Assembly (NCBI GenBank): GCA_027487775.1
Contig: JAIYCY010000025.1
Location: forward strand, 397,692-461,691
DNA from: Planctomycetaceae bacterium
GTDB taxonomy: Bacteria > Planctomycetota > Phycisphaerae > Tepidisphaerales > Tepidisphaeraceae
Direction: 5' to 3'
DNA length: 64,000 nucleotides
Shown: one piece after another, positions 44,341 to 47,522 of the stretch
Position numbering within the stretch: the first letter of the stretch is position 1
Layout of the letters: every line of letters starts with the position of its first letter
The notes under the pieces: generated by a model
The model's database searches: none
The model's input: the letters and a program-made list of their open reading frames with translations, nothing else
Told to the model about the DNA's origin: nothing
Translations under genes and position numbers: made by a program

Positions 44341-44949
44341 TCAGGCTTTTCCGCGAGCGAGTTCGCGTTCGATTTCGCTTTCCAGCGCGTCCAGTTTGCC
44401 GAGTTCTGCCTGCTCGGCGGCGAGCACGTCGGCTTCGATCATGCGATCGATTTCCGCGTCGGCGACCTGGCTGCTTTGCCCTGCGCCTTGCGTGAGGCTC
44501 TGGCCGTTCGCACTGGTTTCCATGGAGTCGAGGAACAGGCCCATGCGTTCCTCGATGCTCTGGCTTTGGGTGACGGCCTTTTCCCATTCGACCTGTGTCT
44601 TGGTCAGATCCAGCTCGCCGAAGGTTTTGCCGATTTCCTCGGCGATGACGCTCATGCTGGTGGCGAATTGTCCGCTCGCACTTGCCTGCTTTTGCAGGAT
44701 GATCGCGCTGTTGATTGCGACGAGTTGCCGTTCGAGCATGCGTTTGATGGATGTCGTTTTCTTGAGCTGTTCGCGGATGAATTTGTATTGCTGATCGTCG
44801 CCGACTTTTTTGGCTTGCTGTGCGTTCTTGATGAACTGCTCGGTGAACTTGCCCTGTTCGGCGATCGATCGTTCGATGGCTTTGACTCCGCGGCGAATGA
44901 GCATTTCGCGCTCGATTCGACGTTCTTCCTTGCTCTTGAATAGTCCCAT
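44341..44949 (-). CDS. ESCRT-III/Snf7-like helical protein (CHMP-like), third gene of cluster
   Basis: The 202-residue protein is almost wholly helical. It begins MGLFKSKEER, like the MGLFGK start of eukaryotic CHMP3. Residues about 10-45 and 52-92 form a basic helical hairpin (KKVGDDQQYKFIREQLKKTT), and 95-145 a shorter helical pair. A Gln/Ser linker leads to an acidic C-terminal helix starting ADAEIDRMIEADV, where CHMP proteins carry their autoinhibitory and MIT-interacting helices. No enzyme motif exists. GGGAG seven bases before ATG 44949 supports the start. The best inference is a membrane-remodelling filament protein. PspA/Vipp1 is the known bacterial branch, but its hallmark N-terminal pattern is not obvious here. 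Confidence 0.6.
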   Translation of the reverse strand: MGLFKSKEERRIEREMLIRRGVKAIERSIAEQGKFTEQFIKNAQQAKKVGDDQQYKFIREQLKKTTSIKRMLERQLVAINSAIILQKQASASGQFATSMSVIAEEIGKTFGELDLTKTQVEWEKAVTQSQSIEERMGLFLDSMETSANGQSLTQGAGQSSQVADAEIDRMIEADVLAAEQAELGKLDALESEIERELARGKA

Positions 44950-44993
44950 GGTGTTTCTCCCGTGATCGGCTCAACTCGGCGTCGTCCAATTGG

Positions 44994-45077
44994 ATTGAGC
45001 GTTGCTCAAGTTCAATTGAGCGTTGCTCAAGTTCAATTGAGCGTTGCGTCAGTTCAATTGAGCATCGCTCAGCCTTG
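44994..45077. repeat. Tandem array, 21-bp unit, four copies
   Basis: Four contiguous units of about ATTGAGCGTTGCTCAAGTTCA fill the gap between the second and third ESCRT-III-like genes. The last, diverged copy overlaps the upstream gene's stop codon (45069-45071). Each unit holds a small palindrome, TTGAGCgtTGCTCAA, so transcripts could form serial hairpins. Confidence 0.9.
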
Positions 45078-45683
45078 CGACTTCGCGCTCATTTTTTCCC
45101 GAACAGCGGCTTCTGCGCTTTCCAGCGCTTCGTTCTCTTTCATTTCCCCGCGATCGAGCTTGTCCCAGTAGGCGAGCAATTCTCCGCCCGCCTCGCCGAC
45201 GCTGGACGAATCGAGCAGTGCCCGGTCTGCGGATTCTCCCATTTCCAGGAGCGCGTCGAGTCGCTCGGTGTACATTTCCTGTGTGACTGCGTCATCTTCG
45301 ATCATCGCGCCGAGCACTGCGAAATCTTTTTCGGTGATGTTCAATCGACCGAGCCCGCCGGCCATGCGGGATTTTTGCTCCTTCACCATGCGCATCCGGC
45401 CGACGGTGAGAAGTTCTTTGGTCCGGACGTTGAGTTCGCGGACGGCCATCAGTTGTTCGCGTGTTTTGAGTTCGAATTCGATGGCGAGTGCTTTTCGCAT
45501 CTCCGGCGATTTCTGACTTGCGCCTTGCTGAAAGATTTTCTGTTTTTGGGTTGAGGCGTTCTCCACCTTCTGCATCAGCTTATCCCGCGCCCGGCCGATC
45601 AAGATCTCCTCCTTGCGAAGCTCAGTGGGACTCAGCTCCGAAAGACTCTTGGTTCGTCCGAATAGTTTTTCGATCAAAGACAT
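45069..45683 (-). CDS. ESCRT-III/Snf7-like helical protein, second gene of cluster
   Basis: The 204-residue protein starts MSLIEKLFGRTKS, close to the MSLFGKLFG start of human CHMP4. It continues with a basic helical hairpin (about residues 20-52 and 60-106) rich in Arg and Lys, a mid helix ITEKDFAVLGAMIEDDAVTQ, and an increasingly acidic C-terminal third. No catalytic residues or signal peptide are seen. The plan parallels the neighbouring 202-residue protein without obvious identity, as expected for different ESCRT-III subunits. No ribosome-binding site is evident at ATG 45683. The gene lies 119 bp upstream of its partner, with a tandem repeat between. Confidence 0.55.
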   Translation of the reverse strand: MSLIEKLFGRTKSLSELSPTELRKEEILIGRARDKLMQKVENASTQKQKIFQQGASQKSPEMRKALAIEFELKTREQLMAVRELNVRTKELLTVGRMRMVKEQKSRMAGGLGRLNITEKDFAVLGAMIEDDAVTQEMYTERLDALLEMGESADRALLDSSSVGEAGGELLAYWDKLDRGEMKENEALESAEAAVREKMSAKSQG

Positions 45684-45785
45684 TGTGGAGGAAGGGTATA
45701 GAGGGATTGAGGGGAAGGAGGGATAAGGGTTGGGTGACTCCTGCTCCGTGCGACACTGACAACTAAGAATGAACGATGGTCTCTA

Positions 45786-47267
45786 TCAATTTGCCTGCGG
45801 AGTGGGCTTCTTTTCGGGTACGGGCGGGAGCGGCGGGGCGGATTCTCGTTGCGGGTTGGCTGCGGTCGGTTGGTTTGATGCGGCAGTCGGTTGGGCGGAC
45901 GTTGTGTCGGCCTGTTTTGGGCTGACGTCTTTCATGAGTTCTTCGTAGAGGGCTTGTTCTTCGTCGGTCATGCCGGTGGTGGAGACCTGTCCGGTGAGTT
46001 CGCTGGCGACTTGTGCTTCGGCCTGCAGTTCGGCGAGGACTTCCTCGGCTTTGGCGGCGTATTCGGCCATGTCTTCGCCGGCGGGCAGTTTGATGCTGTT
46101 GCCCTGTTTGATGAGTTCGAGATTGTGCAGGTAACCGCCGGCCACATCGATTTGCTGGTTGAGCATTTGCAGCATTTGTGCTTTGCGTTCGATGTCCTTG
46201 CGGAGTTGGAGCATCTGGGTGGTGAGTCGGCGTCGAATGATGGTTGAATCATTCTTTTTGAATTGTTCTTTGAGATCGCCTTCATGATTTTCGAGGGCGA
46301 GCAGTTCGTCCTGGACGACGTCGCGTTGCTGTGTGATGGCGGCGCGTCGTTCGGAGAGGAATGCGACCTTTTTGTCGATCGGGTCTCCTCCGGTGAAGAT
46401 GGCTTTGAGCTTGTCGATCACGGGCATGGGTTTGGCTCCGGGCACGGTGGCGATGGCATCACGATACAACACGAGTCGCCCGTCGAATCGTTTGGCGGAG
46501 AGGCCTGGCGTTTCGGAGGCGACGGCTTTCAGTTCCCGCTCTATTTTATCCAAAGGCAGCCCCAAACGCGCGGCCAATCTTTCCGCACCGAGTCCGCCCG
46601 ATGCCAGTTCCATCTTCGACGAGGCGATCGCATCTCGGATCCGTCGTTTTTTTCCGTCATCCGGCTCGGGATCGAGGGCATCGAGGACGCCTTTGGTTTC
46701 AGGCGTGCCGTGGACAGTCCATCCGCCTGACGCGTTCGGTTCGACCAGAATGACAGTCCGCTCGCTCAATCGCTCGGCCAGCGCGAGCGTGTCGCGATCA
46801 AAGCCGCTGGTCGAGAGCAGCACGATCGTCTGCGGCACGCGTCGACCGGCCTTGCCTGCCGGCCCGGGAATCGCTGAAAGCATGGCACGAGCGCGTTTGG
46901 CATCGAGCGGACTTGGTTCTTTGCCGAGGATCAGATCATCGACCGGCGCGTGGGTGATCAACTTCACCTGACCGAGTAGTTTTTCGAAGACCAGCCAGCG
47001 TGTCTGCCGGAGTTCCACATCGACGCTCGGCAAGCCGGGCATGGCTCGCTGCAGGCCGAAATCACTCGAACCCAGCTCCATCATTCGGCGTTTGACCTCG
47101 GCGGACCGGTCGTTCTTGGCGACCACCTTGCGGTATTGCGTGACGGCCCGTCGACCTTCGGTGGTATCGACCACGAACCGACGATCGGTGAGCAAAGTCT
47201 CAAAGTGCCTTAGCAATTCGAGTTCACGCTGTTGATGCCATTGCGGGTCGCTGGACATGGGTGTCAT
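45786..47267 (-). CDS. Winged-helix plus Snf7-like fusion protein (CHMP7-like layout), first gene of cluster
   Basis: The 493-residue protein has four zones. Residues about 20-205 are mixed alpha/beta, including PQTIVLLSTSGFDRDTLALA, which loosely recalls Mrr-type nuclease folds without a clear active site. Residues 207-272 look like a winged helix (ASGGLGAERLAARLGLPLDK then RFDGRLVLYRD). Residues 283-450 are a long helical region with a basic hairpin (IIRRRLTTQMLQLRKDIERK) and an acidic end. The last 45 are Pro/Gln-rich. A winged helix followed by Snf7-type helices is the arrangement of eukaryotic CHMP7, so it could nucleate or recruit the smaller proteins. Start choice among ATGs 47267 and 47258 is open. 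Confidence 0.5.
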   Translation of the reverse strand: MTPMSSDPQWHQQRELELLRHFETLLTDRRFVVDTTEGRRAVTQYRKVVAKNDRSAEVKRRMMELGSSDFGLQRAMPGLPSVDVELRQTRWLVFEKLLGQVKLITHAPVDDLILGKEPSPLDAKRARAMLSAIPGPAGKAGRRVPQTIVLLSTSGFDRDTLALAERLSERTVILVEPNASGGWTVHGTPETKGVLDALDPEPDDGKKRRIRDAIASSKMELASGGLGAERLAARLGLPLDKIERELKAVASETPGLSAKRFDGRLVLYRDAIATVPGAKPMPVIDKLKAIFTGGDPIDKKVAFLSERRAAITQQRDVVQDELLALENHEGDLKEQFKKNDSTIIRRRLTTQMLQLRKDIERKAQMLQMLNQQIDVAGGYLHNLELIKQGNSIKLPAGEDMAEYAAKAEEVLAELQAEAQVASELTGQVSTTGMTDEEQALYEELMKDVSPKQADTTSAQPTAASNQPTAANPQRESAPPLPPVPEKKPTPQAN

Positions 47268-47522
47268 CAATAATGGGTGTCGTCAACAGGATCTGTGGAC
47301 CAAAATCTAGAGCATACAGCAAGGCCTGCGGACGCGTGGGCGAAAGTCGGGGATTCTCAAGGCACAAATCTCCAGCCACTTATCCCACACAACCCGCGTT
47401 GGGTGGGATTCTACCATGTTGGTGATGCGGGTTCGACTGGTCGGGTCGAATCCGTCGAACCGATCGAGCGTTTCGAGGTCGAGCGCTTCACGGTCGAGGC
47501 TTGTGAGGCTAGTGTTGCGTGC

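Follow-up and report, generated by a model that had tools for sequence, protein, structure and literature searches.

The question raised by the locus described here is whether three neighbouring genes of a planctomycete encode an ESCRT-III-type membrane-remodelling system, such as those known from archaea and eukaryotes. The locus lies in a 64,000-nucleotide stretch of Planctomycetaceae bacterium (assembly GCA_027487775.1, contig JAIYCY010000025.1, positions 397,692 to 461,691), which is referred to below as the window. Three consecutive open reading frames (ORFs) on its minus strand encode proteins of 202 amino acids (p1, beginning MGLFKSK), 204 amino acids (p2, beginning MSLIEKLFG) and about 490 amino acids (p3):

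44341..44949, minus strand: p1, 202-aa protein of the ESCRT-III/Snf7 superfamily (Snf7 matches of orthologs, AlphaFold2, Foldseek, CHMP3 match of the first profile)
45069..45683, minus strand: p2, helical protein of 204 aa, by hhalign a paralog of the C-terminal module of p3 and candidate second ESCRT-III-like subunit
45786..47258, minus strand: p3, 490 aa, N-terminal alpha/beta domain, winged helix and ESCRT-III-like helical module (AlphaFold2, fold searches)

The start of p3 was placed at the ATG at 47258, and a TTG at 47270 is likewise open. Based on the results of this study, p1 to p3 are probably structural subunits of a bacterial membrane-remodelling system of ESCRT-III type with a Vps4-like ATPase, which would most likely be an ATP-driven, multi-subunit polymer in a lineage without FtsZ. 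A first-pass annotation, made from the sequence of the window alone, had already likened the cluster to a bacterial ESCRT-III/Snf7 system, and the Snf7 matches of p1, the fold of p1 and the architecture of p3 support that proposal.

The annotation's three consecutive minus-strand genes, two of them for proteins of 202 and 204 residues, were all recovered. Among 61 related genomes, 25 have an ortholog of p1 (50-66% identity) with p2 and p3 immediately upstream of it in unchanged order, and identities for p1 and p2 in these genomes range from 42 to 66%. Since orthologs recur in related genomes with the order p3-p2-p1 kept, the three are real genes. Sampling across Planctomycetota found p1 in 56 of 392 genomes, and a pattern scan of one genome per species (84,980 species) gave 80 loci, nearly all in Planctomycetota. 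Two loci were not counted as transfers outside the phylum: L106, apparently from Alphaproteobacteria, seems to be the same contig as one in a genome of the window's class (G045), and L137, from Gemmatimonadaceae, is a contig of 3.2 kb. The basic N-terminal part and acidic C-terminus noticed earlier in both small proteins were also confirmed, with net charges of +8 (residues 1-105) and -11 (remainder) in p1 and of +9 and -11 in p2.

Sequence and fold of p1

Searched singly against Pfam, NCBIfam and the PDB, p1, p2 and p3 of the window gave nothing usable, and orthologs were used for the family test of p1 because the window copy has no database match. When 64 p1 members were compared with 24,736 Pfam families, Snf7 (PF03357) matched the most members (28 of 64, best E 0.0011). 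In the same scan Snf7 was not among the matches listed for 57 p2 members, which are like p1 in length, charge and helicity, and a composition artefact is therefore a less likely source of the p1 signal. The Snf7 hidden Markov model matched 26 of the 392 Planctomycetota genomes at E<=1e-3, and 25 of these 26 matches were p1 loci, as assigned by comparing coordinates with an independent p1 search. Four p1 orthologs scored above the curated Snf7 cut-off of 27.3 bits (31.1, 29.8, 28.9 and 28.4), and among 14 control genomes Sulfolobus acidocaldarius alone was matched.

In profile-profile comparison with hhalign, p1 was linked to yeast Snf7, Shrub and CHMP3 at E 4e-4 (reversed decoy 0.09). This is weaker than the published link between Snf7 and PspA, which gave E 2.9e-6 in the same set-up, and p1 is thus a distant but above-noise member of the ESCRT-III superfamily. 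The first p1 profile also had CHMP3 as its top PDB match (E 0.034, colinear); this match is not relied on alone, because it was gone when a larger p1 profile was used.

The AlphaFold2 model of p1, built with 64 sequences, reached a predicted local distance difference test (pLDDT) score of 76, with low confidence beyond residue 110, and thus in the C-terminal half. Its helices (residues 7-49, 52-112, 115-147 and 164-201) follow the ESCRT-III helix order:

44803..44931, minus strand: helix alpha1 of p1, residues 7-49, first arm of the hairpin (AlphaFold2)
44614..44796, minus strand: continuous helix alpha2/alpha3 of p1, residues 52-112 (AlphaFold2)
44509..44607, minus strand: helix alpha4 of p1, residues 115-147 (AlphaFold2)
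44347..44460, minus strand: acidic C-terminal helix of p1, residues 164-201, possible position of an MIT-interacting motif (MIM) (AlphaFold2, charge)

The top ten Foldseek matches of this model among 350,542 PDB chains all belonged to the ESCRT-III superfamily (E 4e-3 to 0.2), including CHMP1B, CHMP2A/CHMP3, IST1-CHMP1B, Loki CHMP4-7, PspA and Vipp1. With VIA-align, Z scores were 10.7 to Asgard ESCRT-IIIB, 10.6 to CHMP2A-CHMP3 and 9.9 to Snf7 (2.0 A over 102 residues). Unrelated helical hairpins reach a Z of 9 against the same model, and for this reason the full-length fold match and the sequence evidence are given more weight than the Z scores. Of the two outcomes that the first-pass annotation had named as fatal to its proposal, kinship with an unrelated coiled-coil family and lack of the ESCRT-III fold, neither was found for p1, whose model shows the hairpin followed by further helices and has its best PDB matches in the expected superfamily. 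A relaxed MIM1-like spacing was present in the C-terminal helix of 53 of the 64 members, against 2.7 expected from shuffled sequences; the C-terminus of the window's own p1 fits this spacing poorly.

PspA and Vipp1 (IM30, PF04012) share their fold with ESCRT-III and are bacterial, like p1, and PspA remodels membranes. The three proteins could accordingly be divergent PspA/Vipp1 proteins engaged in envelope-stress repair, as in other bacteria, with the ATPase being incidental. The presence of PspA and Vipp1 among the Foldseek matches of p1 is in line with this explanation, and so are a weak profile link between p1 and planctomycete PspA (hhalign E 1.7e-3, decoy 0.62) and the occurrence of PspA genes near AAA ATPases in some bacteria (PMC11237479). 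However, PF04012 never matched p1, either in 30 carrier genomes or in the genome of the window, whereas Snf7 did match p1, which bears out the earlier remark that these proteins are not obvious PspA/Vipp1 members. Both by structure and by profile (E 4e-4 vs 1.7e-3) p1 is nearer to CHMP proteins than to PspA. Moreover, separate PspA genes on other contigs exceeded the PF04012 cut-off in 8 of the 30 p1 genomes, and the p1 cluster is thus kept beside an intact PspA system in some of them. PspA ordinarily consists of one kind of subunit and lacks Vps4 (PMC7615534), and a multi-subunit cluster with an adjacent Vps4_C ATPase differs from the published PspA pattern. A PspA/Vipp1 identity of p1 to p3 is considered highly unlikely.

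Architecture of p3 and its relationship to p2

The AlphaFold2 model of p3 (pLDDT 86) comprises an N-terminal alpha/beta domain, a winged helix at about residues 200-266, a hairpin of residues 294-335 and 339-388, and two further helices (396-419 and 432-445):

46674..47258, minus strand: N-terminal alpha/beta domain of p3, residues 1-195 (AlphaFold2)
46461..46661, minus strand: winged helix of p3, residues 200-266 (AlphaFold2, fold searches)
45924..46439, minus strand: ESCRT-III-like module of p3, residues 274-445 (AlphaFold2, fold search, hhalign)

The winged helix was confirmed by Foldseek and VIA, in searches that used the window's p3 as a whole rather than its N-terminal domain separately; the model and the fold searches agree with the earlier description of the third protein as a winged helix joined to a helical region similar to the small proteins. 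In CHMP7 a tandem winged helix is joined to ESCRT-III, and CdvB consists of ESCRT-III and a broken winged helix. As in these proteins, a winged helix is fused to an ESCRT-III-like module in p3, with the two halves being separate genes in some lineages; unlike them, p3 has an additional alpha/beta domain of about 195 aa at its N-terminus, a single predicted winged helix and an ESCRT-III module that is only distantly related. The p3 module aligned with eukaryotic ESCRT-III over 116 colinear columns (hhalign E 0.0075, reversed decoy 0.35), and Snf7 was matched in 4 of 52 Pfam scans of p3 (best E 0.011); this kinship is suggestive.

The p2 profile was matched to the p3 module at 84% (E 7e-6) and, with more sequences included, at 95.5% (E 1.5e-8, reversed decoy 0.38), and from these alignments p2 is a paralog of the C-terminal module of p3. 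No hhalign link was obtained between p1 and either p2 or p3, and paralogy of p1 and p2 is not claimed. The connection of p2 and p3 to Snf7 is thus indirect. The first-pass annotation had regarded both small proteins as ESCRT-III-like; this is supported for p1, with its Snf7 matches and its fold, and more weakly for p2, which is a paralog of the p3 module with no direct link to Snf7. In more distant planctomycetes the winged-helix and helical parts of p3 are encoded by separate genes, and the cluster gains one or two additional helical proteins of about 200-230 aa, one family of which matches the p3 module (hhalign 94.8%). The cluster therefore encodes several candidate subunits.

Nevertheless, p1 could be the only ESCRT-III relative, with p2 and the p3 module being unrelated coiled-coil partners, so that the system would have one subunit and helical adaptors. 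The p2 results are what such an arrangement would give: neither Snf7 nor PspA was linked directly to p2, whether in the Pfam matches listed for its 57 members or by hhalign, where its alignment to eukaryotic ESCRT-III was at decoy level. The p3 hairpin had its best matches in CT398 and HP0958, and unrelated coiled coils reached VIA Z scores of up to 13, equal to or better than the 10 to 11 obtained with Snf7 (10.9), CHMP2A-CHMP3 (10.7), Vipp1 and Asgard ESCRT-IIIB. On the other hand, these last scores, together with the hhalign and Snf7 matches of the p3 module given above, speak for relationship, and both p2 and the p3 module resemble p1 in length, charge layout and the short hydrophobic N-terminus. 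A one-subunit system is somewhat unlikely.

The Vps4-like ATPase and the layout of the cluster

In the first four families of the class examined besides that of the window, p1 is followed by a gene for a single-AAA ATPase of about 372 aa. Of 54 named loci with sufficient flanking sequence, 38 (70%) have the ATPase downstream of p1 in the same orientation, a median gap of 312 bp separating p1 from the ATPase reading frame. In the window's own family it is unlinked to p1; the ortholog in the window genome (56% identical) lies on another contig (G000:C11:16384-17541), which is the reason why the first-pass annotation missed it. Both genes were present in 21 of the 61 genomes, p1 only in 4, the ATPase only in 2 and neither in 34 (Fisher p = 2e-10, uncorrected for relatedness), and two of the four genomes with p1 only are drafts that are 58 and 60% complete.

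Vps4_C was found in 36 of 38 ATPase members (best E 3e-7). When genomes were searched, it exceeded the cut-off in 12 of 30 p1 genomes, mostly beside p1, and among the 14 control genomes in archaea alone; the ATPase ortholog of the window genome fell below the threshold. Judged from sequence, the N-domain of the ATPase has the size of an MIT domain and is a bundle of three helices in which a G-D-Y/A-A pattern is conserved, and its profile had a weak match (E 0.086) to a chitin synthase, which we take to be MIT-containing.

The ATPase could also be a Cdc48-derived or TPR-AAA unfoldase which regulates the filament in a manner unlike that of Vps4, and the likeness to ESCRT would then be limited to the filament. 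Its top PDB sequence matches are two-domain Cdc48/p97 proteins, and its N-domain looks as much TPR as MIT, with Pfam matches to TPR in 17 of 36 members and to MIT in one. In an AAA tree, which included no archaeal CdvC, it was placed near bacterial TPR-AAA proteins, while the single Vps4 reference (yeast, its sequence checked against PDB 5uie) was on a long branch at an open polytomy. The Vps4_C matches, the close neighbourhood with p1, and the size, the conserved pattern and the chitin synthase match of the N-domain stand against this explanation, which is possible though doubtful.

An independent second case comes from G060, a genome of the window's class without p1, in which a different and more divergent ATPase exceeds the Vps4_C cut-off (L178:2649-3785). 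Directly upstream is the gene of a 218-aa protein for which Snf7 gave a match at E 4e-4 and hhalign a link to eukaryotic ESCRT-III (60%, E 8e-5). This class thus has two cases in which an ESCRT-III-like protein is paired with a Vps4-like ATPase. The G060 pair adjoins an ORF that looks like a reverse transcriptase by eye.

Outside the window's family the genes often form an operon in the order kinase-p3-p2-p1-ATPase. Upstream of p1, p2 was present in 64 of 74 loci and p3 in 60 of 65; a Ser/Thr kinase was found upstream in 53 of 58. In other parts of the phylum p1 often has another AAA ATPase, of greater divergence, encoded upstream of it, and in some Phycisphaerae (L170, L171, L172) CDC48_N and CDC48_2 domains are found in Cdc48-like ATPases with two domains. 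One genome (L032:3779-4870) has, between p1 and the ATPase, a short additional copy of the ATPase N-terminal region (similar to residues 1-43), adjoining two small ORFs that by eye resemble a nucleotidyltransferase/HEPN pair. In most operons the ATPase is followed by a conserved protein of about 600 aa (L031:1879-3690, L203:9513-11414) with a weak hint of a C-terminal beta-propeller. No Pfam family was found for it, and a by-eye reading as SPFH-like received no support from Pfam; more remote homologs are present in several members of the window's family, with none found in the window's own genome. In the window, the gap between p1 and p2 (44994-45071) is filled by a 21-bp tandem repeat of 3.7 copies with 89% matches (consensus ATTGAGCGTTGCTCAAGTTCA).

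Proposed mechanism and cellular role

Several results weigh against an ESCRT-III-type system with a Vps4-like ATPase, in addition to those already given for p2, the p3 hairpin, and the N-domain and tree position of the ATPase. The window's own p1 had no Snf7 match in its own search, and the superfamily membership of p1 rests on orthologs that share 35-66% identity. The CHMP3 match was lost with the larger profile, and the hhalign link of p1 to Snf7 stands at 35%, compared with 88% for Snf7 and PspA. The strict MIM1 motif L..RL..L[KR] was not found in the 64 p1 members. Finally, in the window the Ser/Thr kinase is not adjacent to p3.

Compared with the archaeal and eukaryotic systems of ESCRT-III (CHMP/Snf7/CdvB, PF03357) and Vps4/CdvC, the planctomycete system is alike in the fold, sequence and charge layout of p1, in having several subunits, one of them with a winged helix, and in the adjacent AAA ATPase with Vps4_C. 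It differs in being bacterial, in the absence of a canonical MIM1, and in an ATPase with an N-domain that is not clearly MIT and no clear placement relative to yeast Vps4 in the tree; the cluster also includes a Ser/Thr kinase and the protein of about 600 aa, which are not known from ESCRT loci.

ESCRT-III subunits attach to acidic membrane by their basic hairpins and polymerise one after another, and the ATPase pulls them out. By analogy, p1, p2 and p3 would form a joint polymer on the cytoplasmic side of the inner membrane, where their basic hairpins and short hydrophobic N-termini may engage the acidic membrane. With its layout like that of CHMP7 and CdvB, p3 could be the nucleator or membrane adaptor, after which the subunits would polymerise in sequence, p2 being a putative further ESCRT-III-like subunit. 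The acidic C-terminal helices may autoinhibit the subunits or recruit partners. The ATPase, whose N-domain is helical and MIT/TPR-like and whose C-terminus is of Vps4_C type, would dock on the subunits and extract or remodel them with ATP, so that the polymer changes its shape, and the clustered Ser/Thr kinase may regulate the system.

Planctomycetes have no FtsZ, and no driver is known for the binary fission of Phycisphaerae (PMC6952346). The FtsZ family was likewise not found in 60 of the 61 genomes searched. A replacement of FtsZ by this system across the whole class is unsupported as stated, and a universal role in division is unlikely, because relatives without p1 also lack FtsZ. The system may equally serve division in some lineages, membrane repair or vesicle formation. 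That these planctomycetes possess the complete ESCRT-III/Vps4 machine, in which several subunits co-polymerise, a winged-helix protein nucleates and an ATPase extracts, and use it for membrane scission in binary fission without FtsZ is unlikely; if true, ESCRT-driven division would be a feature of all three domains.

Sporadic Snf7 homologs and Vps4-like AAA genes have been described in a few bacteria (PMC11237479), and the planctomycete cluster is similar to these cases in combining bacterial Snf7-like and Vps4-like genes. However, the Vps4-like transfers reported there are without Snf7 and have a TPR/6TM protein in its place, whereas the Snf7 and AAA operons have transmembrane segments and ABC transporters. 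The p1-p3 cluster is not reported in that study, the main text of which does not mention planctomycetes. In a literature search with preprints and most subscription journals outside its coverage, no report was found of ESCRT in Planctomycetes, Phycisphaerae or anammox bacteria, or of a bacterial Vps4.

A group of planctomycetes lacking FtsZ carries conserved ESCRT-III-related filament genes together with a Vps4-like ATPase. In reviews, the combination of ESCRT-III-related filaments with a Vps4-like ATPase is described as missing from bacteria, and a conserved multi-subunit ESCRT-III and Vps4-like operon across Planctomycetota would revise this picture. Such an operon would bear on the history of ATP-driven ESCRT-III machines, which may predate archaea, have been transferred or have arisen twice, and the cluster supplies named candidate genes for testing.

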